Source: a virus
Strand: one strand, 5' to 3'
IMG/VR virus record: IMGVR_UViG_3300030101_003617
Span: 1-31,718 of that record
DNA: 31,718 nucleotides
Of the stretch, positions 1,406 to 31,718 are shown one piece after another. The translations under genes were made by a program, and so were the position numbers. The stretch's first letter is position 1, and every line of letters starts with the position of its first letter. A model generated the notes under the pieces. It was not told the origin of the DNA. It did no database searches and saw only the letters and a program-made list of their open reading frames with translations.

Positions 1406-1704
1406 AAGCAGAAACATTAAAAACAAAAGTGTTAAACATATTGCGTGAAGATATCAAGTATGCAGATGACGACCAAAGATTAGTAGCTCGTATTATATGG
1501 GAGTCAATGCCTAAAAAAGATATCATGGCTAAAGAGTTGTTGCAAGATATGTTTATACATAAAAAATATCCTAAACCTAAATCAATAGAAAGATGTAGCA
1601 GATTATTGCAAGAAAATTATCCAGGACTACGAGGTAGTAAATGGGTAGAAAGACAAAGAAAAGCTGATAAAGCAAGAACAATCATAAACGAAAGATTAGT
1701 ATGA
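1402..1704 (+). CDS. conserved phage protein, 100 aa, function unknown
   Basis: The C-terminal half (SIERCSRLLQENYPGLRGSK, then WVERQRKADKAR) resembles a small protein seen again and again in phage early regions, with the pattern S-I-x-R-x-R-R-x-L-Q-E-x-x-P-x-L-R-G. I know no established function for it; its predicted helices and basic surface would suit a nucleic-acid or replication-associated role. Both ends overlap neighbours by four bases. The family resemblance is from memory and was not searched. Confidence 0.6.
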   Translation: MKAETLKTKVLNILREDIKYADDDQRLVARIIWESMPKKDIMAKELLQDMFIHKKYPKPKSIERCSRLLQENYPGLRGSKWVERQRKADKARTIINERLV

Positions 1705-2966
1705 TGAAAATAAAATTTGATTTGGCTGATATACTAGCAGTTCAAAGTCATTCATATGAAGAAAAACTAATGACTGACTATATAATAAAACAACTAGAAT
1801 ATCTCAAAACACTAAATCAACCTATTAGTTATCATGTAGATGAAATAAAATCATTAACGGGTAAATCCATTACCAACATATATGTTACTAAAGGCACTGT
1901 AACTGGTAATGAACACTATCCTTGTTTTGTATCACATACAGACACTGTGCACGATATCATTGATAATTTATGGATTGGTAAAGGTAAAACAAAAGAAGGC
2001 AAAAAAACTTTGTATGGTTATACAATTTTGAATGACGAAACCTATGGCGGTAAATTTATTGAACCAGCAGGTTGTGGCGCAGATGACAAAGTTGGCATAT
2101 GGGCTTGTCTAAATTTAATTGCTAACCTTGATGTATGTAAGCTAGCATTTTTTGCAGCAGAAGAAATGGGATGCGTTGGCTCAAGTAAAGCAGACAAAAA
2201 CTTCTTCAAAGATGTTGGCTATGCACTACAAACAGACAGAAAAGGTAGTAGCGACTTCTCTCTTGATATCAATGGTACAGAGATGAATGACAAAAAGTTT
2301 CGTAAAAAGATTAAAGATCTTGTAAAACGAAGAGGTTTTCAGTTTACTAAAACATTTACCACAGATGTCGGTCAACTCAAAAAAGACGGTATAAATGTTT
2401 GTATGTCAAACCTCAGCTCTGGCTATTACAATGCACATCAAGACACTGAGTATGTTGTAGTTGAAGAAGCTGAGAACACATTAAATCTAATGTATGATAT
2501 TGCACGCAGACTAGGTCTAGAAAAACAATATCATAAGCACGAACCTAAGTTTACAACATACACAGGTAGATTTAGTGCTGGTACAAAAAAGTACAATGCA
2601 TACAATAAAAGTTATATAGATAGATGGAATCAAGAACAAGAATTAGAAGATTGGAATCGTAGTTTCAATGTTAAACCTCAAGGTACAGATGTCTGCCCAT
2701 TTTGTAATGAAGATTTACGAACTATCAATGGTCACAAAGTATGCGTAAACCATGAGTGCACAAATTGTGACGTTCAATACACTATGGATTTTTATGATGA
2801 CTACAGTTATAATGCTGGAGCATTTTATGAATCTGAACAAATCTATCCTGTAACTAATAAAAGTTTTGTATTGCTTGGTTACTACAATCCTTCTAAAGAT
2901 AAATTGTACTACAAACCAACTGAGGTTACATACAAAGATCCAAACCAAACAACAATACCATTTTAA
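1701..2966 (+). CDS. M20/M28-type co-catalytic zinc peptidase with C-terminal zinc ribbon
   Basis: The first 270 residues carry the metal-binding pattern of two-zinc exopeptidases: SHTDTVH at 78-84 (His79 ligand, Asp81 support), GCGADDK at 124-130 (bridging Asp128), AAEEMG at 152-157 (catalytic Glu then ligand), QTDR at 177-180 (Asp179) and AHQDTEY at 245-251 (His246). All expected ligands are present, so an active di- or tripeptidase or carboxypeptidase-like enzyme is likely. Residues 332-356 add a zinc ribbon, CPFC...CTNC, unusual for this family and possibly a nucleic-acid or partner-binding module. The protein is cytoplasmic, with no signal peptide. ATGATG at the 5' end leaves position 1701 or 1704 as the start. 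The substrate is unknown. Confidence 0.8.
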   Translation: MMKIKFDLADILAVQSHSYEEKLMTDYIIKQLEYLKTLNQPISYHVDEIKSLTGKSITNIYVTKGTVTGNEHYPCFVSHTDTVHDIIDNLWIGKGKTKEGKKTLYGYTILNDETYGGKFIEPAGCGADDKVGIWACLNLIANLDVCKLAFFAAEEMGCVGSSKADKNFFKDVGYALQTDRKGSSDFSLDINGTEMNDKKFRKKIKDLVKRRGFQFTKTFTTDVGQLKKDGINVCMSNLSSGYYNAHQDTEYVVVEEAENTLNLMYDIARRLGLEKQYHKHEPKFTTYTGRFSAGTKKYNAYNKSYIDRWNQEQELEDWNRSFNVKPQGTDVCPFCNEDLRTINGHKVCVNHECTNCDVQYTMDFYDDYSYNAGAFYESEQIYPVTNKSFVLLGYYNPSKDKLYYKPTEVTYKDPNQTTIPF

Positions 2967-15471: not shown

Positions 15472-15759
15472 CTAACACTTCCATCTACGTCTAGCTGCGC
15501 AGATTCTTTTTTTAGGAGTTTTACTACAACTAATATTGTGCATCTTCATTTGTCCTAAACTTCTAGAACAATAAGACTTTCTACGCTTTGCAGCTTTACT
15601 ACCCTTTTTAACTTTACCTGTTACTGCAGTTTTTAATTTACTACCAGGATTATCTCTTCTATATTTTTTAACACCTGCACGCGTCATGCCAGCACCAGAT
15701 TTAGTAGATCTGAAATACTTCTTTTTTTTAGGCGGCATCTTTTTACGTGCTCTTGGCAT
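15472..15759 (-). CDS. DUF6321-like basic protein, 95 aa
   Basis: After a Lys/Arg-rich start, residues 17-67 read FRSTKSGAGMTRAGVKKYRR, then NPGSKLKTAVTG and KAAKRRKSYCSRSLGQMK, ending in AARRRWKC. This follows the pattern G-A-G-x-T-x-x-G-x-x-x-Y-x-R-x-x-P-G-S-x-L-x-x-x-V...K-R-R-K-S-x-C-x-R-S-x-G-Q-M...R-R-W-x-C of a small family in phages and large viruses. The spaced Cys residues (64, 78, 87, 95) could bind a metal. A DNA-condensing or capsid-interior role is likely. It starts in a TAATG junction with the T9SS gene. Confidence 0.7.
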   Translation of the reverse strand: MPRARKKMPPKKKKYFRSTKSGAGMTRAGVKKYRRDNPGSKLKTAVTGKVKKGSKAAKRRKSYCSRSLGQMKMHNISCSKTPKKRICAARRRWKC

Positions 15760-17756
15760 TAGTCAAGTATTATAATTGTTTTTGTTATTCTGATTTTATC
15801 GTAATCTATAAGAAGATAATAAATACCAGACTCAAAATACAGCGAATTAACATTATCATATTCGCCTACTAATGCTCCCTTAGAATTGTACGCTTGTACA
15901 TTTACAAATTTAGTAAAATAAATTGTATGATTAGCAGGATTTGGATAAACGTCCATACCCAATCTTTCAAACATATCAATGTTGGTAGGTCCCGACCAAC
16001 CATCCTGACAATAATCATATAAATCATTACATGGTTGATCCCATACGTTATCACAACAATATGGATCTACACTAATTACCCATTCAAAACAAGCATTAGG
16101 TATATAATATGGTACATTTGCATCACACGATGATTCATAATAACAACTACTATCTGGTATGTTTGCTAATGGCTCAAAGTTTACAGCAGTAGCATCCATA
16201 CATCCAGGAAATGGATATATACAAGTACCATTGTCCGTATTAGCCATAGCATCATAATTCATAGCTGTTGTGTCCATACACCCATAGATATAAGGTATGC
16301 AACTCCCATTGTCAGTATTACATGTATCACAATAATTAAACATTGTTGGATCAGTACAACCAAATATTACCGCTATACATGATCCATCGTCACTATTTGC
16401 TAGCGGATTATAGTTAAAGGCCGCACCATCAGTACAGCCCCAGACAACGGGTATGCATGAACCATTATCTGTATTTGCTAAACTATCATAATTAAATGCT
16501 GTAACATCTGTACATCCATAATAAAACGGTATACATGTACCATCATCTACATTAGCATTTATATTATAATTATACATTGTGCTATCAGTGCAACCCTCTA
16601 CAATAGCAATACAAGAATTAGGTAACTCAACGTTAGCCAATGGATCGTAATTAAGTGCAGTTGAATCCATACATCCGTATACAACCACCGTAGCACAACT
16701 ACCATCGTCATAGTCGTAAGACGCGTCATATTCCAAATAAAGTGGATTAGTACACCCTGGATTATAATAACAAGTTCCGTCATCTGTATTTACTGTATCG
16801 TTATAATTTACTGCTAAGCTATCTATACAACCATATGTTCTTTCTATACAATTATTACCGCAATATGGCTCTCCCATAATTGGAAAAAATGGTGGTATAG
16901 GATTGACAAATCCTCCTTCTATGTCTATAGCTACATAATCTTCAGAGTATAAACTATAACCACATTGTACTGCAGTAAAATCTGATTGTTGTGTTATTTC
17001 AAACACTGCTCTTACAGGATATCCTGCTGCTAAGTTTATAAAAAACGTAGTATCAAAACCATCCAAAAGCGTATATGTACCAATAACCTGATAATTAAAT
17101 GGAGGTACTACGCTTGTTGCCTGTGACAGTTTGAGTGTAGAACCAGCCCAACCGTTTCCAGCTAGGTCAGTTAGTTCAAGCTCATGCAGACAGCTATCTA
17201 TAGCTATATCTGTATTAGCTGAAACTATATAATTATATGCTAATGAGTCTGTACAACCGTATACTTTTGGTGTATAACACATGCCCGTGTCAACTGTAGC
17301 CGTTAAATCAAACTCTAAATAACTACTATCCATACAACCAAATACTGGTGGAGGTGGAGGGCAACCTGATGTATATATTGTATCAAATATTTGAAAGCCA
17401 AAATCAGCTACAGGTAAACTCCATATAGTGTCACCGCATTGTTCTATATATACAGAACCATCATTACCACCCCATAAACTACCAGCAACACCATCTCCAT
17501 ACAAATCATCTAAAACAAATAAGAAAGAATCTATAGGAGCACATACACTAGAATATTGTGGCTGATAGTCTACTATATTATTATAAGGGCCACCTTGCAA
17601 TAAAGTGTCACCATTAAAGTTTATTATATACCAAGATGTTTCTTCTGGATATTGATCTGGATTTATAGTAACATCAAGACTCCATGTGCTTGGAGGACAT
17701 TGTGCATATACTAGATTGCTAAGTAATATAAATAATATTGTGAGTAATTTTTTCAT
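15759..17756 (-). CDS. secreted repeat protein with type IX secretion C-terminal sorting domain, 665 aa
   Basis: Probably made late in infection and delivered to the host surface by the host's own type IX system. A signal peptide (MKKLLTILFILLSNLVYAQ) covers residues 1-19. Two strand domains follow, with VLDDLYGDGVAG at 81-92 and LTDLAGNGWAG at 195-205, a D-x-x-G-D/N-G-x-x-G pattern common in flavobacterial secreted proteins. Eleven repeats of GC(T/M/I)(D/N)...NY...A...DDGSC occupy about 140-189 and 307-538. Residues 600-665 match a T9SS type A sorting tail: MDVYPNPANHTIYF, VQAYNSKGALV, then SGIYYLLI and TKTIII. If carried on virions instead, the tail would be unexplained. It is coupled by TAATG to both neighbours. 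Confidence 0.85.
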   Translation of the reverse strand: MKKLLTILFILLSNLVYAQCPPSTWSLDVTINPDQYPEETSWYIINFNGDTLLQGGPYNNIVDYQPQYSSVCAPIDSFLFVLDDLYGDGVAGSLWGGNDGSVYIEQCGDTIWSLPVADFGFQIFDTIYTSGCPPPPPVFGCMDSSYLEFDLTATVDTGMCYTPKVYGCTDSLAYNYIVSANTDIAIDSCLHELELTDLAGNGWAGSTLKLSQATSVVPPFNYQVIGTYTLLDGFDTTFFINLAAGYPVRAVFEITQQSDFTAVQCGYSLYSEDYVAIDIEGGFVNPIPPFFPIMGEPYCGNNCIERTYGCIDSLAVNYNDTVNTDDGTCYYNPGCTNPLYLEYDASYDYDDGSCATVVVYGCMDSTALNYDPLANVELPNSCIAIVEGCTDSTMYNYNINANVDDGTCIPFYYGCTDVTAFNYDSLANTDNGSCIPVVWGCTDGAAFNYNPLANSDDGSCIAVIFGCTDPTMFNYCDTCNTDNGSCIPYIYGCMDTTAMNYDAMANTDNGTCIYPFPGCMDATAVNFEPLANIPDSSCYYESSCDANVPYYIPNACFEWVISVDPYCCDNVWDQPCNDLYDYCQDGWSGPTNIDMFERLGMDVYPNPANHTIYFTKFVNVQAYNSKGALVGEYDNVNSLYFESGIYYLLIDYDKIRITKTIIILD
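16143..17339 (-). repeat. eleven Cys-rich protein repeats (GCTDxxAxNYxxxANTDDGSC type)
   Basis: Inside the 665-aa gene: two repeats code for residues 140-189 (17190-17339), and nine in near-perfect succession for 307-538 (16143-16838). Each is about 20-25 residues with a GC at the start and a Cys at the end, probably closed by a disulfide, and acidic DDG/DNG residues that could bind calcium. DNA identity between units is moderate, so they are old. Number of units may vary between related phages. Confidence 0.8.
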
Positions 17757-18634
17757 TATATATCTTCAAAGGTTACGTTAGACAAAGTAAAATTAAGAGT
17801 AGTTCCACTTGCAATACGACCAATAACATCATTTCCATCTGCCTGTAAAGGGTAATGCAATAAAGGTTCAGTAGCTATTAAATCTGTATAATCTGTTATA
17901 ACACCAAAATTATATAACTTACCTACTTCAGTTGCAGATAATTCTTCATTCCATATAGCAAAATCTCTCATACCTAACTGACCATACAAATTACTATATT
18001 CAAAAAAACCTAAACTAAAACTATCATATTCAGATGTAGAAGTATTTAATGATCCAGAATCATTATCTATTAAACTCATCGATTGACCATTCCAATATAT
18101 TGACCATTCTCCAGTGCCTCTTGTAAATGCAACATGTACAAATCCATCAGCGTTTGTATTTATGTTAGTATTTCCAGATCGCCACATAGCAGAGTGTGCA
18201 GATGAAGTACTACCTGTTATAGAAGTGTTAGAGCTTAATCTTGCAATATCTACTTGTCTTGCATTACCAGGACTTGTAGTTCTTATTTCTATAATAAGAT
18301 CATTTTTATTATTAGCAGAACCATCTTCTATCATGTAATAACACCTAAATGATTCGTGTACATCTGTATCACTACCTAACATAAAAAATGGTATAGCATT
18401 AACTACTGCGTCAGCTGGACTATCTGGAATACTCCAAGTAGCTTTTACCCACATAGCAAATGAAACATTATCACCAATAGTTCCTGTGCCGCCTGCTAAA
18501 AGACTTGGTAATCTACCCAAATCATTTACAAGAGCTTTACTATCTGAACCATTAAAATTTGCGTACTTTGTAGCATATCTGCTTTCAGGACAATAATCAG
18601 GCGTATTTACAGAATTTGATAAAGCTAATTGCAT
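17756..18634 (-). CDS. LamG/concanavalin-A-like lectin domain protein, 292 aa
   Basis: A single jelly-roll domain takes most of the protein: KYANFNGSDSKALV near 24-37, VSFAMWVKATW near 59-69, a MWRSGNTN strand, GFVHVAFTRGTGEWSIYWNG, then GMRDFAIWNEELSATEVGKL, the A-x-W-x-x-x-L-S-x-x-E-x-x-x-L-Y pattern that ends LamG-like domains. There is no signal peptide, so it is more likely a virion (fibre, decoration) protein binding host glycans than a secreted one. It overlaps the thioredoxin-like gene and the T9SS gene by TAATG junctions. Confidence 0.75.
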   Translation of the reverse strand: MQLALSNSVNTPDYCPESRYATKYANFNGSDSKALVNDLGRLPSLLAGGTGTIGDNVSFAMWVKATWSIPDSPADAVVNAIPFFMLGSDTDVHESFRCYYMIEDGSANNKNDLIIEIRTTSPGNARQVDIARLSSNTSITGSTSSAHSAMWRSGNTNINTNADGFVHVAFTRGTGEWSIYWNGQSMSLIDNDSGSLNTSTSEYDSFSLGFFEYSNLYGQLGMRDFAIWNEELSATEVGKLYNFGVITDYTDLIATEPLLHYPLQADGNDVIGRIASGTTLNFTLSNVTFEDI

Positions 18635-18966
18635 TAGAATTTACTTATTATTAATTCATCAATATAGCCCTGTATTTCTTTTCTTGTTATTACCATAGTA
18701 AAACTTAAATCCGCTTGATATCTTTTGACTTCTTCACCATCATCAAATATTACAATAGTCGGTACAATAGCTATATTATATTTTTTTTGATTGTCATCGT
18801 CTTCAATAAAAAGAGACTGCTTATCGCAATCTCCTAATTTATTAAACCATTCGACATTATTTTGTTTGTTCCAATCTGCATTAAAGTGTATCGCTGTTAT
18901 CTGAGCTGAGCACGTAGTATAAACTGCAGAGAATAAAAAAACCAAATATAATATCAACTGTTTCAT
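18634..18966 (-). CDS. exported thioredoxin-fold protein lacking the CxxC pair
   Basis: Signal peptide (MKQLILYLVFLFSAVYTTCS then AQ) of about 22 residues. The mature part has the thioredoxin core: IHFNADW before the active site, YNIAIVPTIVIFDDGEEVKR at 63-82 with the cis-Pro at 69, and a C-terminal helix. Where WCxxC should be, it reads W32-N-K-Q-N36, so both redox Cys are lost; two other Cys (20, in the signal peptide, and 47) do not restore the motif. It may be a periplasmic binding or scaffold module, for example for assembly of the secreted proteins next to it. It lies between the coiled-coil gene and the LamG gene. Confidence 0.65.
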   Translation of the reverse strand: MKQLILYLVFLFSAVYTTCSAQITAIHFNADWNKQNNVEWFNKLGDCDKQSLFIEDDDNQKKYNIAIVPTIVIFDDGEEVKRYQADLSFTMVITRKEIQGYIDELIISKF

Positions 18967-18970
18967 TCAT

Positions 18971-19243
18971 TTATTGCATTCTATCTATTTTATCTTCTAT
19001 ACGAATCATACGCTCTTCTAACTTACGAACATCATCTCTTGTTTCAATTATTGTATTTCTTATATTTTCATCCTTCATATTAAACTCCATTTTAGAAACC
19101 TCTGGTGTTGGCAACTCTCTTGCTTCAGCAATATCTGCCTGCAATGTAAACCACATTCCTACTAAGGTGAAGATTAAAGCTGCTATGCCAGCTAAAGTTT
19201 TAATACTTATTTTAAAACTAGTATCTTCGTTTAACTCTTTCAT
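18971..19243 (-). CDS. single-pass membrane protein with coiled coil, 90 aa
   Basis: A short cytoplasmic-looking start, one membrane helix at about 13-34 (SIKTLAGIAALIFTLVGMWF) and a charged helical tail from 50 on (IRNTIIETRDDVRKLEERMI and RIEDKIDRMQ) with heptad spacing. That layout recalls inner-membrane spanin subunits, which link to an outer-membrane partner, but there is no lipoprotein partner next to it and it sits far from the holin. It may instead be a structural or regulatory protein that multimerises. Follows the outer-membrane gene by one base. Confidence 0.6.
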   Translation of the reverse strand: MKELNEDTSFKISIKTLAGIAALIFTLVGMWFTLQADIAEARELPTPEVSKMEFNMKDENIRNTIIETRDDVRKLEERMIRIEDKIDRMQ

Positions 19244-19244
19244 T

Positions 19245-20276
19245 TTAAAAAATTATATAATTTATTCCAAATTTAAAATCATACCACTCTCTGTTCCAAT
19301 ACTTATTGTATTTGCCTTCTACAAAGGTACCTAAATGTTTGTTGATTTTCAAACCAAATATTATACCCCCTGAATAATCATACCATTGCTCTCCATCATT
19401 AAAATTATGATATGAATATTGCCCACCATCATTATAATGATACGGCATAAAATTTCCCCAACTATGTAACCAAAAACTTTTAGTATAATAATAATAATCA
19501 AAACCTATGACTAATGAATGTTGCCATTGATTAGCTAGTTCATTTCTTTTTTCTTCTACATAGTTTTCTAATACTTGAGGCATAATAACTTGATTCCATA
19601 CCTCAGCACTAGTAGCTACAATAGCACCATCTGGTGATCTGTATTCAGATTCATATACATCTATACTATAACCTTGTTCAATAGCTAGTTGCGTATAATG
19701 AATATCACCTGTTCCCATTGTCCATAGCTCCAATGGATCGTAACCATAAGGCTCTGCAAGCCTTTGTACTGCACCTATGTTAAATGATAGTTTTTTACTA
19801 CCCCTTACTCTTAATCTCTGTGTGCTTTCAAAGTATTCTATGTCTGCAAAACCATCTTTAATATATTCAGCTTTTGTAAACCATTTTGATTTAGCATATC
19901 TAATAAAGTGATGTTGATCTAAATACTCTACACCTTCTTGTCTTCTATATTCTATTTCAAACAAATACTCAAAAGGATTTCTACCAATACTAGCAGCATC
20001 ACTAAATGATGACTCTGTACCATCTTTAAATGTAGTTTTATCCTCATACCCAAAACGTTGTATTTTACGAATACCCATAGATAAAGAATAATCGTATGGT
20101 GTGAGAATTGTATCATATAACAATGTGCTACCATCCAAAGAATACACCTCTTTATCTGACAAAGATGTACCACCATTAGCAGCCACATAAAATGTTGAAA
20201 ACTTTATAGCTTTCTTAAATTGCGCACTTACTAATAGCGATGAAAATAAAAATAATACAATTAGTATTCTAATCAT
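19245..20276 (-). CDS. phage-encoded outer-membrane beta-barrel protein, 343 aa
   Basis: Signal peptide MIRILIVLFLFSSLLVSAQ, from the ATG at 20276 (the GTG just upstream is less likely, since the ATG forms a TGATG junction with the upstream gene). The rest is made of alternating-residue strands rich in Tyr, Phe and Trp (SLVIGFDYYYYTKSFWLHSW; GTFVEGKYNKYWNREWYDFK) and ends FGINYIIF, a C-terminal Phe as required for BAM-dependent insertion. A barrel of about ten to fourteen strands is likely. Because late phage genes rarely encode outer-membrane proteins, it may alter the host surface or block superinfection; function unproven. Confidence 0.7.
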   Translation of the reverse strand: MIRILIVLFLFSSLLVSAQFKKAIKFSTFYVAANGGTSLSDKEVYSLDGSTLLYDTILTPYDYSLSMGIRKIQRFGYEDKTTFKDGTESSFSDAASIGRNPFEYLFEIEYRRQEGVEYLDQHHFIRYAKSKWFTKAEYIKDGFADIEYFESTQRLRVRGSKKLSFNIGAVQRLAEPYGYDPLELWTMGTGDIHYTQLAIEQGYSIDVYESEYRSPDGAIVATSAEVWNQVIMPQVLENYVEEKRNELANQWQHSLVIGFDYYYYTKSFWLHSWGNFMPYHYNDGGQYSYHNFNDGEQWYDYSGGIIFGLKINKHLGTFVEGKYNKYWNREWYDFKFGINYIIF

Positions 20277-20641
20277 CACGAAACATTAAATGGTTGTGGT
20301 GCAAAATAACATACACAAGTCCCTTCTGCTAATTCAACATAATCCCACCTGCCAAATATTGTTACTCCTTTAGGAAACACGTGTGAGTTAGTTATATCAG
20401 TTGCATTTGCCGCTGCACCAAACTCTGCATCGTGATCATTTTCTGCAGTTACAGTACTTATAGATCTTATCTCACCTTTATAGTTTTGCAAAGCTGTAAA
20501 CTTACTGTCTGCTAAAAATGTTATTGCTATTACAAACATTGTAGCCGATGAGCCATTTAAATCTACAGAACCTGTTCCTGTAATAAATGATGAACCATAC
20601 TGGCCTAATGTTGCGTTATATATATCATTACTGTTTGCCAT
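20276..20641 (-). CDS. small probable virion protein, 121 aa (paralogue 2)
   Basis: Same layout and length as the 121-aa gene at 21231: MAN-x-N-D start, LGQYGSSF, a middle FVIAITFLAD, then VFPKGVTIFGRWDYVEL and an ending CVCYFAPQ. Both match in the F-x-K/R-G-x-x-I-x-G-R-W segment, so they are duplicates on either side of the 193-aa gene. A small strand-rich protein likely to decorate head or tail. TGATG overlap with the outer-membrane gene. No enzyme motif. Confidence 0.6.
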   Translation of the reverse strand: MANSNDIYNATLGQYGSSFITGTGSVDLNGSSATMFVIAITFLADSKFTALQNYKGEIRSISTVTAENDHDAEFGAAANATDITNSHVFPKGVTIFGRWDYVELAEGTCVCYFAPQPFNVS

Positions 20642-21622: not shown

Positions 21623-24600
21623 TTATAATCCTAACCTATCGCCTACAAAGTTTACACTCGGAGGCACAGCCATAAACTTTAATCTTTCTGGATTAAAGAA
21701 TACGTTTTGTTCTTGTATCCTAGCATGTGCTGCTCTATTTATATTTTGTGATACTACACTATCATCATCATCAGATGACAATCCATAAGCTAACATAGCT
21801 GCCATAGTTAAAGCTACACCTCTTACATATCTAATAATAGCATCTTTTCTATACTTAGGTAATTTTTCAAAATCTTTTAATGATTTTTTACCCTCGTACA
21901 TTTCTTTTGTAAAATCAAATGCAGCTCTGTAAGTCCCTATGTCGGCATTGCCATACATATCTATATTAGCATCACCAAACCTTTCTCTAGTCATTGTAAA
22001 GAAATATTTTTTAAACTGTCCTAAAGCTCTACCCCAACTATACATAGAAAGTCTACGCTGATCTAAAGGAGAATAACCAAAACCCTGTTGTTTCTTAACG
22101 TCAAATACTATTTGATTAACTTGATCTACAGTTAATGCATCAGGACTTATTTGATCTAACGATAGGTCTGTGTACTTATAAAATTTACCATCAACAGCTT
22201 TTACTAATAAGTTGCCTTCTGTATCAGCATCGTATGAGTTCCATTGTTTCTCGCTCATTTGACCAAAGAACATCACCCCTTGTATCCATTTTTCAGATTG
22301 TTCCATTGGCCACAATGCTAATCTAAATATAGGATTTTGTTTATGCACTGCAGATATGTCTTCATACTCATAGTATTCAAACTTAAATAACTCATTAAGC
22401 ATTGCAGTAGTTTTATTAGTGGCACCAAACTTTAAATCTTTAGCTCTTTCTGTAAATGATTTTACAGAAGCTTGACCTCCTAAAAATCCCTGCCAAAATC
22501 TTTTTTCACCCTTAACAAACTCTTGTCCACCTTTAGCTCTAAGGTTTGTATACTTACCCATAACAGTATTACCTAAAACAACAGATGCATCCAAACCTAT
22601 ATAACCTAAGGTTGTAATATCTACAAGCTTGTTAATAGACCAATCCCAAACACCCTTAAATGCTTTTTGTTTTTTACCGCCTATAATATTATCTTTCCAA
22701 ACTTCTTGTAGATAATCTACCATGTTATCATTACCTTTTAATTTATTTAAAGCTATAGCACCATCAATTAAAGGTAGGTATGATTGCATACCCAAAAAGT
22801 CTGTCTTCTCGTTTCTAACAGCCCATTGTTGATAAGTTTCTGCAAAGTAGCTGCTACCATCTTTATCTTGTATAACCTCAGCATCATCTAAATATTCTAA
22901 TCTATATTCTTGTGTGCCATGCTTAAACATATTACTGTGTACATAAGACTTAAGTATGTCACCTAAATCTCTACTACCTATTTCTGATATGCTAACATTT
23001 TTATTATCTATCATGTTGTAGAATATGTCGCTGTCAGTCATTGTAGCGCGTTCTACTTTATTTAAAATAATTGGTGTTTTATCATCATTCATACCGCGTT
23101 TAGCAGCGGCTACAGCACGCTTACGCGTTTTTTCTAATCTTACTAAATTCTTGGCTTTTGTAAGAAAAGAATCTTTAGTTTTGGCTTCATACAAAGTTTT
23201 CCACTCTGCAAAGGTTCTTATCTCTGTAGTTCCATCTGGCAACTCACCTAATACTTTTATATTGTTTAGATCAGAAGTACTACCTATTTGTGATTTATAT
23301 AGTCCAAGTAAACCGTGTCTAGCTATAGATGGTATGCCACTCATAGCTTTGTACGGTATAGATGTAACATCTGTGCCAGGACTATACTTTTGTACTTGAT
23401 CAATAAATAAATTATAGAACTCTATTTCACTTGCAGTTGCTCCAGCTTTCTGCACTTCTTCTATTGTTCTTAATGTAATAAACTCACGACCATCTTTATT
23501 TACATTTACTTTAAATAAATTTTTATATATATAATCATTTAGTTTACCACGCAAAAACAAACCTACCATTTGTGCATTAGATAGTTTAGATAATCTTTGA
23601 TCTTTAATCGTTTTTTCTAATCTAGATATACTTTTAGATATTCTTCTATAGTCTTTGATAAACTTCATATATCCATTTTGAAGTTCTCTTATAATAGATT
23701 GCACTTCAGGATTTGTTTGTTTTAGGTTATTAGATATCAACCAAGACTCCCAAGAACCTAAATCTTTTCCCATCAATGATATATTATTTTTATTTGCAAC
23801 CTCTGCTATGTTAGCTATTTGTTGCTTTTCCATTCTTTCTGTAAGCTCCACACCTATGTATTCTATATATTGATTGTATAGTATTTTATCAAAGTTACTT
23901 AGCTTAATAGATATATCAACAAGCTCAGCGTCATTCATTGCTTTATACTTGTCTGTTTTAATAATATCTAAATACAATGTTTCGTATAAGTCATCATGTT
24001 GTTGCTTATAATCATCATACATTTTATCATAGTACTGCTCAGTACCAGCAGACATAGTTCTATTTCTTGTAGATAAACCTTTTAGTTGATAGTATGCATC
24101 TTTTGACATAGCTTTTGTAGGTACACCAGATTGTTCTGCTCTATTGACTTGTACATCTGTTGAATCATAAGTACCCTTATATCTACTTCTGTTAGGTCTA
24201 TTTTGATATTTTTTTCTATCAACAGCTCTACGAACAACTTGCTTAAATGTTTTACTAGAGTTGCTTGTTCTATGTTGCTCTTCAGTCTTAGGATTAAACT
24301 TAGAGTTACCTATTAAATAATACTTACCATCTACATATTCAAATGTTCTATAAGTTTTATCTGTATTATCCCAAGACTTTACTACGTGTGGTGTATCAGA
24401 CTTTTGTAACTTCTCTACAACTGGGGGTGGGAAACCTTTTATTGTAAATACAGTACCGTCTTCAGACACTTCGCTTTCAGCCATAGTAACTGACGGTGCA
24501 TTATATGAATAATCTTTTAAGAACTCAACAGCTAAACCTTTAGCTTCTTGCTGTGTAACATTACGCTTGTTATCAAGTATTAGATTGTTAAGCTCTTGAT

Positions 24601-27600
24601 TTATTTTATAATCTTTACCATATGTATTAGGGCTCCACAAGACAGATGTAGAAGAAGATCCTATCCAACCATTTTGTAAAAAGTCCATTTGTATAAACAA
24701 CTTTCTTTGATCAGGACCAAAGTCTATATACTGCGGTATATAGCCATCACTCTCTTGTGTTCTATCAGTTTCTATTCTGGGTGTACCTGGAGCAACATCA
24801 AACTTATTTATTCCTCTATTCTGGTCTAATAAATCAAAATGTCTTTGCAATATGTTTATATCAGACTCTGGTATATTAGCGTCAACAAATCTACTATTAA
24901 GAGAAACAGTTTTATTATCATAGTTTAACATTATACCATCTGCTAAAAATCTATTTTGCAAATCATATGGTAATTTATTATTTTCAAATACCAACTGCTC
25001 TATACTTGCAAACAACACATCTTGTGACGGCATATCTTGTAACACAGATAAATCTTGTTTCATTCTGAACAATTGATACTGACGAACAGCAACAGGATGA
25101 TTTTCAAATGCATTTTGTTGACTACTGTCTACTATTTCATTAATAGCTTTTTGTACCTCAACAGCTTCATTACTATATTGTGTATTTATTTCTTGATCTA
25201 ATTCTTTTACTTTATTAAGCACAGCTATATTATGCTGTATTATAGGATCAGATTTGAGTGCGTCCATTGGACCTTGTAAGAACCTAGAATCTTTACCACC
25301 AACATCATTAAAGTCTTTAATAAGTTTATCTACTTGAAATCCATTCTGCAATGTAAGACCATACGCACCAATAACTCTACCTGTGTTAAACACCTCAGTA
25401 CCAACCTTATTCAGTTGATCAAGAAGCTTTACTACCTGCATGTTAAAGTTATTGTCATTAACATTACTAAAGTCTATATTTATTATATCACCCTTATTTA
25501 CTTTTAACAAAGGATCTATGTTATTCCTTATGTAACTAGATGCTGCTTGCTTCTTGCCTAAAAACTCTATAGAGTTATCAACATTCTTATTGTTAATTTC
25601 TGATTCATAATATTCTACCATAGCCTTTTGTCCAGGTGTATAGTATGACATATCATTAACATTAATTACAGTTCTTTCTGATGCATACTTATTATATTTT
25701 AGTGCACCCTGACTATTAAGTATAGTAGCAACTTGATTAAAATTGTAACCCATTCTGAGTAACAACATAGCTGGTTTTATTGTTTCATAAGTAAAACCTA
25801 ATTTACGTGCAAACTGATATTTTGGATTATCAAGTATAATATTTAAAACTTTTGCTGTCTGTAAATAGTTTGTTTTATTATCATCAGTTAACTTGTTTCT
25901 TTCTACACCCTCTATTCTTACACTAAAATCTATTTCTGCATTATGATGTGCAAAGTAATTCATATCTCTTTGCATTGTAGCAGCTATACCAATCATACCA
26001 CCAGCAGGTACATTTTCATTAAATGCGTTAAGCATACCTACAGGCATCATTTGGCTAGACTCTGTTGCAAAATCATCTGTACGCTTACCAAGCTTTTCTT
26101 GTGCAAAATTTAATGCTGCCTCTACATCAGATTCAAAATCAATTGGTGTAGTTATTTCATCTATGTGAGCTTGATTACCATTAAGCTTTACAATATTATC
26201 AAATGCTCTATTGTAAGCTGTTTCTGATAGTTTTAAATTTTTCTTTACATATCTACCATTAACAAATATTGCATCACCATCTAAGTCAGATCCCATAGCT
26301 TTTGATACTCCCGTTGCTACAGCTATAATACTACCAGCATCTCTGTCAAAGAAATCTTTTACTATAAGTACAGGTTGTGTAGACTTAGCGTGAGAAGGTA
26401 TACGACTACCTAACACTACATCACCTACATTATAATCTTTAGCCATATTGTACGGTAATATAACCTCAGATACAATTAAGTCTTCACCATACTTATCTAT
26501 TTGTTTGTTTATTTTACTAGGATCAGCTGTAGTTTGTTGTAAAGCTTTTAGTGTAGTAAATGATTTTAAACCATACCCATATGGTGTTACCTGGAACGCT
26601 ATAGTTCCTGGTGTGACAACTTTAGTTCCTACCTCAACAAGTAATTTATTTAATATAGAGTTTCTAGACACATTAAGTTTTGGGAAGAATGCACTTGCAT
26701 AATCCTTCATATTACCAGTAGGATTACCTGCCCATGATGCGTCTATCTTATCTAATAAAGATCTGTTTAATGATATTTGTTTTGCTTCTGTATACTCATC
26801 TACATTATAATACTTCTTTACACCTGACTCTTCTAATTGATAAGCCATTGCCCTAGCTATTGCGTTATGTGCACCCTGTGCCAATAACTGTGTTTCAGGT
26901 GTAGTATTAGTGAGATGTTGTGAGTAAGACTGTGACGCCATTGGTGATGTATACTTTTCTTTATCAAGTATAAGCTGTACACCAAAGTTCTGACCATCTA
27001 ATCCTACATATCCTTGATCATTAGAATATAACTCGTTATATACATTTTTTATTTCTTGTTCGTAAGCTAATCCAATTAAGCTTGACTCTACATTAGATAT
27101 ATCTATAGTGTAATCTTCTATTTTATATGGCGCTGTTTTTATTGCCGACTCCTGATATGCTACCACTTGATATGTCAGATCTTTATTATCTTTTTGTAAA
27201 TCTGCCTTACGAACTCTTAACAACTCTGCTACACTAGCTAAATATGGATTTTTCTTTTCCATTTCAGGAGTAATAGACATAACGTTAGCCTTAGCATAAA
27301 AAGAACTATTAGGACTAAAGATATTGTTAACTAATCCGTCTTGTCGTAAATCTTGTCCATAATAAACATATTTAAAATGTCTAGCTGTTTCACTGTCATT
27401 ACGCATAAAATTCAATCCATACTGTGATCCTATATTATCAGCATCTTCAGATAATACATATCCTTGTGCATCCATTTCAGAAAATCCATCTACCTCTACA
27501 TCTTTTAATACAAGTACATCTACAGATTGATTTATGTCTGTAGGCATTTGTCTTGCTATGGAACCTGCACTACGTTTTACAAAGTCTTCTTCATTTTTAA

Positions 27601-30600
27601 ATTGTTTATGATCACCAATAAACATTCTTTGTGCTTGGAATCTATTGATACCAAAGTTAAGTATATATGTACGTAAAGCTTTTTTACCAGCAGCATTTAA
27701 TTTATTACCATCAAACATACCTTGAAAATCTACATTTGTTTTATATAAATGTAAATTATTCATCATATGCGATTCTAATAATTTTACTTGTTTAGATACA
27801 TATGCTTCATCTATCACAGCCTTTTTACCTTTTTGTTTTATAAATGGTAATACAGGTTTGCCGTCAATATATGTTTGCCCTACATACTCAGATAATCTAA
27901 AATCTATTTCTTCTTTTATTTGTGAATCTTTAAGCAGTTTAGTTTCTATGTAATACATTCTTGTCTTTTCTGCAAAAACACCAACCTGCTGCATATATGT
28001 AGTATCAACTAAATTACCTTCGCTATCTGTTTGTCTACGTCTACCTAAAGCATTCATAAAGTCAGTCATTTCACTAACCATAAGCTCTTGTGGTGTTAGT
28101 CTAACATAGTTAAGGCCTCTATTATTTAGCTGTGATATAAGGCCGCCTCTAAATTTAAGAACATTCATTCTTGGCTCTACAGTTTCTACGCCATTTACAA
28201 TCTTAAACTCGAACGGTAAATATACGTTATCGCCATATAAACTTCTTAGTGCGTCAGCTCTATCAAATACTCTATCATAGTATTCTTGATCTGTTTCTTC
28301 ATCTTTTCTGGCAAAAAACTCGTTAAGTCTTTCGTTCTGGTTTATAATGAAACTACGAGTATTCATAGTATTAGATGGATTACCCTCTGCATTCTTAATC
28401 ATAGTAAAGTAATAGAACACTCTACTATTAAGAGCGGCTTGTTGTAACACAGGCCTAAATACATCTATAGCTAACCTTGGATCTTTAGTTGCTTTTATTA
28501 TTTTCTTTTCGTTCTTTTTAAACCAATCATTAAGACTTAATCTTGTTTTACCATCTTGTATACCTGTCTGCTCTAATGTGTTCCAATAAAAATAATTACC
28601 ACCATACACATCAAACATTTCCATCAATATCATTTCTGCATCTTCATATGTAGTATTAGGATCTTCATTAAGTCCACGTATACCGTTTATAACTTTATTG
28701 GTAAACTCTACATCTCTTCGTCTTCTTGTACCATCTCTACCCTTATCAAATATAAATCCTGCTTCTTTAATAACTCTTGATACTAATGCTCTTTCTTCAC
28801 TAGCAGTAGTTTCTTCGTTAAATAAATCTAAATCACTAACTTGTGATGCTTCATTATTTCTTTCTACTGTACTAAATATCTCTTCGTTAGTTCTGTTACT
28901 AAAGTTAATCCATATAGATGACAACAAATAGTTAGCTACATTTTTCTGTACATTTTTAGTATCCTTTCTTCTAACTATCTGTAATGGCTTTCTATACTTT
29001 ACGCCTTCTACAACTAATCTATCTTCTAAATACTTTAAGAAAGCTACCACACTACTATTCTTATTAGCCCTAATGGACGCTATAAAACCTTGTAAATCGC
29101 CTCTATGTTGCTGTGCTGTTTGTAATATTACAGCCATAGCACCTAACGCTTTGTTTTTAACATAAGGCTGACGCATAAGTTTTTTCTTGTTCTGCGCTTC
29201 TTCTGTTTGCATATAAACTCTGGTAAAGTCCATCATTAGTGCAGACATACCAGACAACAACTCATCTTTATTTTTATTATATATGTTTAGTACATTATCA
29301 CTATAGTCTACTAGCTCATTAATATCTGTTATATCATCTAAGCCGTGGTAATTAATTCCAAATACTTTTTCGTACTCATCTATTACTACACGCAATTGAT
29401 CGCTTACAAGGGCTTCTATTTGTAAATCATTAAGACCTTCTTTTTCTAATGCATTATTGAATAGCTTCTGTATTTCTGACTTAGTGGTATCAGTAGATAC
29501 TTTCTGTACCTCTCTATTAAACTTATCAAACACAGAGTTTACACCTCTACGATTCATAACTTTAAAAGCAATTGCTTGTGCAAAAGATCTTACGGTCATA
29601 CTACTATTACCCATTTGTATAGTAGTGGTATCTATATCTTTTGGTTGTACTTTTGCAGCTGCTTTTCTAAGTTGTGCTTTTTTAAATTTAATTTGTTTTA
29701 CAAACTCTCTTCGTGATTCTATATTAGTTGCAGCATCTATCTTTTTTTGTATATCAGCAACCTCACGATTTAATTTAGAAAGTTTTTTTGTATTGTATAT
29801 AATTGCTTCTGAGAATCTATTATGTATACCATACTCATATGACAGTTGTGCCATATTTTCTACCACTATATTTATAAACTCTTCATCCTCTAATAGTTTA
29901 GCAGGATCATCAGCGTATTTTCTAGCAAACTCATTTATTAATTTAGTATTATCTTTTAATGAATTATATACATTATTTGCTAATTCATTCTCAAATACAG
30001 ATGTATCAGTAAGATTTCTATTAGGCTTATAATTCATTCTTCTTGAACTTGTAGCTCTACCTTGTCTTACTTCTTCTGGTGTCATACGTAACATATCAAC
30101 ACTTAGTTTGCTACGCATTTCTTCTAAGCTAAGTCCATCAAAATCATTTTCGCTTTGTAATATAGTTTTAGATTCTTTTTCTACAGACTTGCCTTGTTTA
30201 CTTACTAAACTCCAAAAACGTTTTATTCTTGACTTACGTTTTTTATTTTCTTGTGGACTTTCTAATATACCATCAAAAATACGTTTTGCATCTTCTCTAG
30301 TATTAGGATTATCAGGATCAGATATATAAGTTGCCCAGCCCTCTTCCATTAATGCCATTTGTTTTTCTGCAGCAACTTCTTTGACAAGATTATTCTCTCC
30401 TAGCATACGCTTTAGCTCATTATAATCTTCTATTTGTTTTGTTACACCTGTGCCTTCATATGCTCCTGCAGATTCATTTGCAGCTATCTCATCAACTATA
30501 TCTATCAAAGCCTGTAACTCTGATGATAAATTTTCGTAAAAGAACTCATCATTTTTATTAAATGATCTTTCATGTAGATCTTGTGCTATCTCAGCTAAAG

Positions 30601-31718
30601 TATAATCTACACCATTATATGTAAACATCTCGAGCTCTGGATATCTACCTTTTAATGCAGCATATTCATTAGACTTTGCAAACTCTTTGATAAAGTTTTT
30701 GATTAATGGCTTATCTTGATTTACTCTAAAATAGATATGCCCTGTATACTCGTGTACAAATAATTCTTGATATAGTTTATTAGGATCTACAAATACAGCA
30801 CCAGCCACCTCATATGCAGGTGATGTACCAAAATGATTAAATGATGAGTCTATAATACCTACAGGTACATTAAGCTTGTCCTGTATAAACATAGTGTTAG
30901 TTATTCTAGCATTCCTACGATTGAAGTTTATATTCTTTGATACGTTTTGATTAGCAGACTTATAGTTTGACTTCTTACCCTTCTCTCTTGGTTTAATTGG
31001 TTTTTTCTGACTAGTCTTAGTAGATGTCTTTTTATTTACTTTAGTTTCTACTTTTTTTTTACGAGCTTGAGATACTTCTTCTTGGAACTCAATAGCTATA
31101 GTCTTCTCATTATTAGTAAGATCAGAAACTTTTGTGCCAGCATCTAATTTTTCTGCTACAGATTTTACAGCTGCATCTACATCAGCTTGATCTTGCGGTC
31201 TTACATTTTCAGGAGTTATAGTTCCTGTGTTTAATTTAGATGCTACTCTAGATACAGACACATCTTCTTCTTCTTTAACTTGTGGCTGTGTTTTTGGTGT
31301 TGTTTCTGCAGCAGGTGTTTTAGGAGTTGTTTCTTCTTCAGTTTGTTGTTTAGGCTTAACTATACCTAATTTTTCACCTGTCTTACGAGCTATTTTACCT
31401 GCAGTTTTAGAAGCTATTTTACCTGCTGTAGTTACTGCTCTTTTAACTATAGATGGCTTTTCTTCTGTCGGTGTTTCTTCTTCTTGTTCTTCAGCTTTTT
31501 TCTTTTCTGCTTCTTTAGTAAGTATATCTTCCCTTTGTTCTTGTTCTAGTTTACTCTTTGGTGTAAACTGTCCACCTACTTTTTTACCTTCACCTCTTGT
31601 AAGTTTACCTTCTTTAGTTTTAGCTACTCCTTTTTTAAACCTACCATTCTCTGATAAAACTTCTTGTTCAATAGATAAATTTACTTCACGAGCTTTTGCA
31701 CTAGCTTCTTCAAGTTCC
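21623..31718 (-). CDS. giant multidomain protein with RNA-polymerase-like DLDGD motif, at least 3364 aa (partial)
   Basis: Residue numbers count from the GTG at 31261, but the frame is open to the window edge (152 more codons), so the real start lies outside. In order: Glu/Lys/Pro/Thr-rich linkers; a metalloprotease-like part with HEYTGH at 170-175 and EEGWATY from 306; coiled-coil segments near 480-525; a block at about 1530-1760 with ILNKLLVEVGTKVVTPGTIA, SRIPSH and MGSDLDGDAIF, where D1659, D1661 and D1663 match the Mg-binding motif of multisubunit RNA polymerases; and a C-terminal third with a hydrophobic helix near 3144-3160. crAss-like phages carry similar giant, probably virion-packaged polymerases; this could be ejected with the genome to transcribe early genes. 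Role inferred. Confidence 0.75.
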   Translation of the reverse strand, partial: ELEEASAKAREVNLSIEQEVLSENGRFKKGVAKTKEGKLTRGEGKKVGGQFTPKSKLEQEQREDILTKEAEKKKAEEQEEETPTEEKPSIVKRAVTTAGKIASKTAGKIARKTGEKLGIVKPKQQTEEETTPKTPAAETTPKTQPQVKEEEDVSVSRVASKLNTGTITPENVRPQDQADVDAAVKSVAEKLDAGTKVSDLTNNEKTIAIEFQEEVSQARKKKVETKVNKKTSTKTSQKKPIKPREKGKKSNYKSANQNVSKNINFNRRNARITNTMFIQDKLNVPVGIIDSSFNHFGTSPAYEVAGAVFVDPNKLYQELFVHEYTGHIYFRVNQDKPLIKNFIKEFAKSNEYAALKGRYPELEMFTYNGVDYTLAEIAQDLHERSFNKNDEFFYENLSSELQALIDIVDEIAANESAGAYEGTGVTKQIEDYNELKRMLGENNLVKEVAAEKQMALMEEGWATYISDPDNPNTREDAKRIFDGILESPQENKKRKSRIKRFWSLVSKQGKSVEKESKTILQSENDFDGLSLEEMRSKLSVDMLRMTPEEVRQGRATSSRRMNYKPNRNLTDTSVFENELANNVYNSLKDNTKLINEFARKYADDPAKLLEDEEFINIVVENMAQLSYEYGIHNRFSEAIIYNTKKLSKLNREVADIQKKIDAATNIESRREFVKQIKFKKAQLRKAAAKVQPKDIDTTTIQMGNSSMTVRSFAQAIAFKVMNRRGVNSVFDKFNREVQKVSTDTTKSEIQKLFNNALEKEGLNDLQIEALVSDQLRVVIDEYEKVFGINYHGLDDITDINELVDYSDNVLNIYNKNKDELLSGMSALMMDFTRVYMQTEEAQNKKKLMRQPYVKNKALGAMAVILQTAQQHRGDLQGFIASIRANKNSSVVAFLKYLEDRLVVEGVKYRKPLQIVRRKDTKNVQKNVANYLLSSIWINFSNRTNEEIFSTVERNNEASQVSDLDLFNEETTASEERALVSRVIKEAGFIFDKGRDGTRRRRDVEFTNKVINGIRGLNEDPNTTYEDAEMILMEMFDVYGGNYFYWNTLEQTGIQDGKTRLSLNDWFKKNEKKIIKATKDPRLAIDVFRPVLQQAALNSRVFYYFTMIKNAEGNPSNTMNTRSFIINQNERLNEFFARKDEETDQEYYDRVFDRADALRSLYGDNVYLPFEFKIVNGVETVEPRMNVLKFRGGLISQLNNRGLNYVRLTPQELMVSEMTDFMNALGRRRQTDSEGNLVDTTYMQQVGVFAEKTRMYYIETKLLKDSQIKEEIDFRLSEYVGQTYIDGKPVLPFIKQKGKKAVIDEAYVSKQVKLLESHMMNNLHLYKTNVDFQGMFDGNKLNAAGKKALRTYILNFGINRFQAQRMFIGDHKQFKNEEDFVKRSAGSIARQMPTDINQSVDVLVLKDVEVDGFSEMDAQGYVLSEDADNIGSQYGLNFMRNDSETARHFKYVYYGQDLRQDGLVNNIFSPNSSFYAKANVMSITPEMEKKNPYLASVAELLRVRKADLQKDNKDLTYQVVAYQESAIKTAPYKIEDYTIDISNVESSLIGLAYEQEIKNVYNELYSNDQGYVGLDGQNFGVQLILDKEKYTSPMASQSYSQHLTNTTPETQLLAQGAHNAIARAMAYQLEESGVKKYYNVDEYTEAKQISLNRSLLDKIDASWAGNPTGNMKDYASAFFPKLNVSRNSILNKLLVEVGTKVVTPGTIAFQVTPYGYGLKSFTTLKALQQTTADPSKINKQIDKYGEDLIVSEVILPYNMAKDYNVGDVVLGSRIPSHAKSTQPVLIVKDFFDRDAGSIIAVATGVSKAMGSDLDGDAIFVNGRYVKKNLKLSETAYNRAFDNIVKLNGNQAHIDEITTPIDFESDVEAALNFAQEKLGKRTDDFATESSQMMPVGMLNAFNENVPAGGMIGIAATMQRDMNYFAHHNAEIDFSVRIEGVERNKLTDDNKTNYLQTAKVLNIILDNPKYQFARKLGFTYETIKPAMLLLRMGYNFNQVATILNSQGALKYNKYASERTVINVNDMSYYTPGQKAMVEYYESEINNKNVDNSIEFLGKKQAASSYIRNNIDPLLKVNKGDIINIDFSNVNDNNFNMQVVKLLDQLNKVGTEVFNTGRVIGAYGLTLQNGFQVDKLIKDFNDVGGKDSRFLQGPMDALKSDPIIQHNIAVLNKVKELDQEINTQYSNEAVEVQKAINEIVDSSQQNAFENHPVAVRQYQLFRMKQDLSVLQDMPSQDVLFASIEQLVFENNKLPYDLQNRFLADGIMLNYDNKTVSLNSRFVDANIPESDINILQRHFDLLDQNRGINKFDVAPGTPRIETDRTQESDGYIPQYIDFGPDQRKLFIQMDFLQNGWIGSSSTSVLWSPNTYGKDYKINQELNNLILDNKRNVTQQEAKGLAVEFLKDYSYNAPSVTMAESEVSEDGTVFTIKGFPPPVVEKLQKSDTPHVVKSWDNTDKTYRTFEYVDGKYYLIGNSKFNPKTEEQHRTSNSSKTFKQVVRRAVDRKKYQNRPNRSRYKGTYDSTDVQVNRAEQSGVPTKAMSKDAYYQLKGLSTRNRTMSAGTEQYYDKMYDDYKQQHDDLYETLYLDIIKTDKYKAMNDAELVDISIKLSNFDKILYNQYIEYIGVELTERMEKQQIANIAEVANKNNISLMGKDLGSWESWLISNNLKQTNPEVQSIIRELQNGYMKFIKDYRRISKSISRLEKTIKDQRLSKLSNAQMVGLFLRGKLNDYIYKNLFKVNVNKDGREFITLRTIEEVQKAGATASEIEFYNLFIDQVQKYSPGTDVTSIPYKAMSGIPSIARHGLLGLYKSQIGSTSDLNNIKVLGELPDGTTEIRTFAEWKTLYEAKTKDSFLTKAKNLVRLEKTRKRAVAAAKRGMNDDKTPIILNKVERATMTDSDIFYNMIDNKNVSISEIGSRDLGDILKSYVHSNMFKHGTQEYRLEYLDDAEVIQDKDGSSYFAETYQQWAVRNEKTDFLGMQSYLPLIDGAIALNKLKGNDNMVDYLQEVWKDNIIGGKKQKAFKGVWDWSINKLVDITTLGYIGLDASVVLGNTVMGKYTNLRAKGGQEFVKGEKRFWQGFLGGQASVKSFTERAKDLKFGATNKTTAMLNELFKFEYYEYEDISAVHKQNPIFRLALWPMEQSEKWIQGVMFFGQMSEKQWNSYDADTEGNLLVKAVDGKFYKYTDLSLDQISPDALTVDQVNQIVFDVKKQQGFGYSPLDQRRLSMYSWGRALGQFKKYFFTMTRERFGDANIDMYGNADIGTYRAAFDFTKEMYEGKKSLKDFEKLPKYRKDAIIRYVRGVALTMAAMLAYGLSSDDDDSVVSQNINRAAHARIQEQNVFFNPERLKFMAVPPSVNFVGDRLGL

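Follow-up and report, generated by a model that had tools for sequence, protein, structure and literature searches.

The closest described relative of the protein considered here is gp66 of phage phi14:2 (PDB 6VR4; Crassvirales, Steigviridae), a DNA-dependent RNA polymerase (RNAP) whose two-barrel core is contained in one chain. Gp65, gp66 and gp67 of phi14:2 carry virion-protein annotations based on mass spectrometry, and gp65 is RNAP-associated. In p-crAssphage (Carjivirus), gp44 is annotated as an RNAP catalytic subunit fusion and gp45 as an RNAP-associated protein fused to a zincin; RNAP genes coding for up to ~6,000 amino acids have been reported in crAss-like phages (PMC10136315), so that giant fusions as such have precedent. 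Gp96 of the Thermus phage P23-45, which belongs to a different phage group, is tail-tape-fused, a two-barrel RNAP joined to a giant virion protein (PMC10770324). The two-barrel single-chain fold is also that of QDE-1 and RDR2, which, unlike the phage enzymes, are cellular and RNA-templated.

The window (the whole stretch of viral DNA that was analysed; 31,718 nt, IMG/VR record IMGVR_UViG_3300030101_003617) carries a giant ORF of comparable kind. An earlier note, made from the letters of this DNA, had described a phage protein of >3300 residues, and the frame does run on for 3,364 codons without a break until it leaves the window at the right-hand edge. Its intact relatives on IMG/VR contigs are 3,983, 3,969 and 3,983 amino acids long. 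All three start MGFDLNEFF, implying that ~620 N-terminal residues of the window's protein lie beyond the window and that the GTG at 31261, from which the note had numbered the aspartates of its central motif (1659/1661/1663, in a protein of 3,212 amino acids), is not the true start. (Residue numbers in this text are those of the open frame, which makes these aspartates 1811/1813/1815.) Scanning Pfam, PHROGs and the PDB with the whole giant protein gave no significant match, and a single-sequence search gave three close relatives. With a DNA pattern for G-S-D-[LF]-D-G-D-A and a profile search the family was widened to ~20 contigs, each with a single giant ORF (~3,510-4,640 codons, stop to stop, where uncut); in the polymerase core its members range down to 21% identity with the window.

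Homology of the core to phi14:2 gp66 is evident when the family is compared as a profile. Against all PDB sequences, a 22-sequence profile finds one relevant match, 6VR4 (E 1.2e-16), followed by a designed repeat protein (0.0015); no QDE-1 or RDR chain is among the matches. (A seven-sequence profile of the family missed 6VR4 in the PDB.) Alignment of the family with the single gp66 sequence by hhalign yields 98.1% over 602 columns (gp66 860-1665), shuffled or reversed gp66 yielding at most 0.7%, and pairs KYVYYG with LKGVYFG, FYAK with TYLK, GSRIPSH with GYRIPNQ, DLDGD with DFDID, and LDNPK with VDNAK. The predicted fold leads to the same protein. With an AlphaFold2 model of residues 1120-2240 (mean pLDDT 80.1, pTM 0.80) as query, Foldseek ranks 6VR4 first (E 3.6e-21, TM 0.61; ~12% identity in the structural alignment), followed by QDE-1 and maize RDR2; P23-45 gp96 (a weak match, E 8e-3) and the cellular RNAPs come far below these. 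A viral structure library returns mainly crAss-like phage proteins. Fpv3 gp32, which contains GLDYDID, was considered as a further relative and set aside for want of a significant profile match to the giant-protein family.

The model supports a two-barrel, single-chain architecture for this core, with the motifs in the same order as in gp66. The earlier note's RNA-polymerase-type reading had been staked on a barrel at DLDGD and on a second one carrying conserved lysines: the confident model has a barrel at DLDGD (DPBB-A), and upstream of it lies a barrel region (DPBB-B, modelled with moderate confidence) with two invariant lysines. In the family alignment D1416, K1449 and K1476 are present in 23/23 sequences and K1527 in 22/22; D1811, D1813, D1815, G1809, G1814, R1772 and P1774 are without exception among the 22 sequences covering the site. 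The column of K1966 holds Lys in 17/21 relatives, and Asn with Lys one place further on in the other 4/21.

The codons of DLDGD are exactly those given in the earlier note (26273-26287, minus strand), in the context SKAMGSDLDGDAIFV. SRIPSH, which the note had placed about 30 residues before it, precedes it by 40 residues start to start, with 34 between. Chance alone would give about one bare D.D.D in a chain of such length and composition (0.96 per shuffle of the giant protein), but in 1,000 shuffles G[ST]D-x-DGD never occurs, and RIP with D.D.D 30-45 residues after it occurs in one; conservation together with the shuffles rules out a chance origin. The DLDGD motif is the polymerase active site, and the note's interpretation of it is borne out by the similarity to gp66 in both profile and fold. 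Its letters are not those of gp66 (DFDID) or of p-crAssphage (DFDVD). They are, letter for letter, those of the plant RDR-alpha enzymes (PMC3610679, PMC8713982).

Table. Features of the giant protein and their positions in the window (residues in open-frame numbering).
Feature	Position	Strand	Basis
Giant ORF	21623..31717	minus	3,364 codons within the window, running off its edge
C-terminal part similar to phi14:2 gp65, residues 3142-3352	21662..22294	minus	BLAST; hhalign 94.8%
RNA polymerase core, residues 1352-2016	25670..27664	minus	hhalign to phi14:2 gp66 860-1665; 6VR4 by profile and fold
K1966, trigger-loop Lys	25820..25822	minus	aligned with phi14:2 Lys-1615; role from PMC8713982
DPBB-A, beta'-like barrel, residues 1704-1820, approximate limits	26258..26608	minus	model strands, pLDDT blocks 78-96; Foldseek 6VR4
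DLDGD, Mg2+-binding Asp triad D1811, D1813, D1815	26273..26287	minus	22/22 relatives; aligned with gp66 DFDID 1361-1365
SRIPSH, conserved RxP element of second barrel	26390..26407	minus	aligned with gp66 YRIPNQ
DPBB-B, beta-like barrel, residues 1397-1583, approximate limits	26969..27529	minus	model pLDDT blocks 48-93; gp66 alignment
K1476, second candidate Lys of DPBB-B	27290..27292	minus	FYAK aligned with gp66 TYLK; 23/23
K1449, candidate catalytic-site Lys of DPBB-B	27371..27373	minus	KYVYYG aligned with gp66 LKGVYFG; 23/23
E458-E459, EExxA, candidate third zinc ligand	30341..30346	minus	E459 21/21, E458 20/21
HEYTGH, zincin-type motif, H322, E323, H327	30737..30754	minus	H, E, H 21/21

Resemblance to phi14:2 extends to both ends of the chain. 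The family's C-terminus aligns with gp65 (hhalign 94.8%, score 81.5; no control, shuffled or reversed, above 0.2%) and its N-terminus with gp67 (82.3%, score 62.5); gp65 and gp67, when shuffled or reversed, score no higher than 27.7. These matches span 40-44 columns, which makes them good evidence for collinearity and not for equivalence of whole domains. They came from profile comparison; tblastn of both termini against phage records found nothing. Since the ends match gp67 and gp65 far above the shuffled controls, what is three genes in phi14:2 corresponds to one gene here, with gp67-, gp66- and gp65-like parts in the same order: by alignment, the three-gene cargo set of phi14:2 appears as a single gene in the lineage of the window. 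P-crAssphage likewise assembles polymerase, RNAP-associated parts and zincin in giant fused proteins, but distributes them over two genes.

The N-proximal zincin-type motif distinguishes the window's protein from the phi14:2 set, in which HExxH was not found in gp65-gp68. Its spacing varies within the family, HExxGH being the form of the window's clade and HExxH (mostly HELSH) the form elsewhere, and the downstream EE is nearly always kept. The HExxGH spacing occurs in dipeptidyl peptidase III. The model of the N-terminal region is poor (pLDDT 58, pTM 0.35), without a match in the PDB, and the region belongs to no Pfam family; 'protease' is therefore a reading of the motif. Of the protease-like part proposed in the earlier note, the conserved HExxH-type motif with its downstream Glu stands, but a confident fold does not, and the part can be regarded as a putative protease.

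Evidence on the head genes comes from a 67-kb relative (G002), the window itself being without a TerL/portal/MCP gene block; the DnaB helicase of G002 is 80% identical to the window's. The TerL of G002 matches Crassvirales records with E 1e-59 to 1e-51 and its MCP with ~1e-18; its portal has a PHROG match of crAss type, and its tail tubular protein a match of 89.9%. IHF was not found in the structural block, the gene at the IHF position giving one 36% match, to Fpv3 gp26. Judged by TerL, portal and MCP, the phage is crAss-related. In a TerL tree that has long branches and no secure root, 12 members of the lineage form their own clade (100/99), which includes neither Fpv3 nor any sampled Crassvirales family; Elemovirus and ctfjg026 sit on a very long branch between this clade and the sampled families, and the placement of cr113 is weak because its row is a 186-aa fragment. 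The separate lineage suspected in the earlier note thus has a clade of its own beside the sampled families. The note is to be corrected in that crAss relationship is found in the head genes also, and not in the polymerase only. Contigs of the lineage do not exceed 70.8 kb and are mostly fragments; crAss-like genomes, as compared here and in PMC7886860, are ~83-192 kb.

Several other elements accompany the lineage. A 44-nt element resembling a tRNA acceptor stem plus T-arm, AACCCTGTTTGGAACATGGAGAGGTTCGAYTCCTCTTCAGGGTT, lies beyond the window's end, at L083:2728-2771, L084:6009-6052 and in four other contigs. It occupies the divergent gap between early and structural genes and is nearly invariant among otherwise diverged members; tRNA and Rfam searches gave no match to it, and it may be an early promoter mark or a tRNA-derived site. 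Within the window, the early gene block has a gene for a peptidase T-like protein adjoining DnaB (1701-2966, plus strand; PHROG peptidase, E 1.5e-38). A 665-aa protein (15759-17756, minus strand) has a signal-peptide-like start and many GC.D..A.NY....DDGSC repeats. Its C-terminal stretch matches the T9SS sorting domain weakly (17.8 bits, below the 23-bit cut-off), and the protein possibly uses the host's T9SS. A thioredoxin-like gene and the adjoining gene of a 340-aa secreted protein (18634-20279) recur as a pair twice near the ends of the G002 contig (789-2417 and 64062-65735), by similar starts and sizes only.

The giant gene is the last of the head-tail block, following the head and tail genes on the same strand. 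Very probably, its product is an RNA polymerase of the type of phi14:2 gp66, DNA-dependent and with two barrels in a single chain, which is packaged in the virion and leaves it together with the genome on ejection. The chain of ~4,000 residues would run from a gp67-like N-terminus and the zincin-type motif through the polymerase in mid-chain to the gp65-like C-terminus. Catalysis is likely: the upstream barrel, DPBB-B, would supply Lys 1449 and Lys 1476, DPBB-A the Mg2+-binding DLDGD, and the trigger-loop Lys 1966 would contact the NTP. By analogy with phi14:2 and crAss001 (PMC10172136, PMC10136315), the giant protein would be kept inside the virion, pass through the tail with partial unfolding and refold in the cell, where it would presumably transcribe the early (replication) genes without host RNAP.

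An active two-barrel RNAP need not be virion-borne. Phages with non-virion enzymes of this kind exist (PMC10770324), and the window's polymerase might, like gp64 of P23-45, be made in the infected cell for middle or late genes. That is unlikely for a gene that follows the tail genes within the structural block and whose product resembles phi14:2 virion proteins in both parts flanking the core; in structure, moreover, the core matches the P23-45 enzymes far less well than 6VR4.

Alternatively, the protein might be derived from a polymerase but structural, or concerned with ejection, its catalysis having been lost. Here the giant proteins of Elemovirus (gp21) and ctfjg026 are pertinent: like the window's gene, theirs follow the tail genes, are of similar size and include HExxH motifs, but they are without the barrel motif, so that this genomic slot does not need a polymerase. 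Loss of catalysis is nevertheless very improbable, since the Asp triad and both barrel lysines are invariant in relatives down to 21% identity, which would not be expected of a dead enzyme. (Position and size had made Elemovirus gp21 and the ctfjg026 protein candidate homologues; neither has DxDxD or a profile match to the polymerase core, and they were rejected as such. Gp21, of a cultured Flavobacterium phage, has 3,694 aa, L078:17564-28648, and the ctfjg026 protein 3,859 aa, L077:741-12320; they are a natural comparison for the non-polymerase parts.)

That the enzyme copies RNA, and has its closer kin among the RNAi RdRPs of eukaryotes and not among the crAss enzymes, would fit the identity of DLDGD with the RDR-alpha motif and the place of QDE-1 and RDR2 as the next structural matches, but is scarcely credible when the nearest protein by sequence and by fold is the DNA-dependent gp66, QDE-1 and RDR2 are weaker structural matches than 6VR4 and absent from the profile matches, and template choice is not set by two letters of a motif.

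The reading as a virion-carried, DNA-dependent polymerase can be taken further, to an injection machine that has everything in one chain and processes itself: its N-terminal cargo part would help to form the entry channel, and once the protein had been ejected the zincin would cut the chain, freeing the polymerase and the associated C-terminal part, throughout a lineage that is sister to Crassvirales. This is speculative and, taken as a whole, unlikely. If true, the link between the polymerases of phages and those of eukaryotic RNAi could be judged from a further, independent point of reference.

The class of polymerase is already known; what is new is a variant of it from a separate lineage, distinguished by an RDR-like DLDGD and by a cargo set joined in a single chain. 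It shows that one polypeptide can house the crAss cargo set, and it brings a lineage apart from the sampled named Crassvirales families to the short list of known RNA polymerase families that have two barrels in one chain. Proteins of 3,500-4,600 amino acids that Pfam and PHROG models miss, and that stand as 'hypothetical', become recognisable to annotators. The RDR-like DLDGD, present in members down to 21% identity with the window, is useful for judging the kinship of phage and RNAi polymerases.
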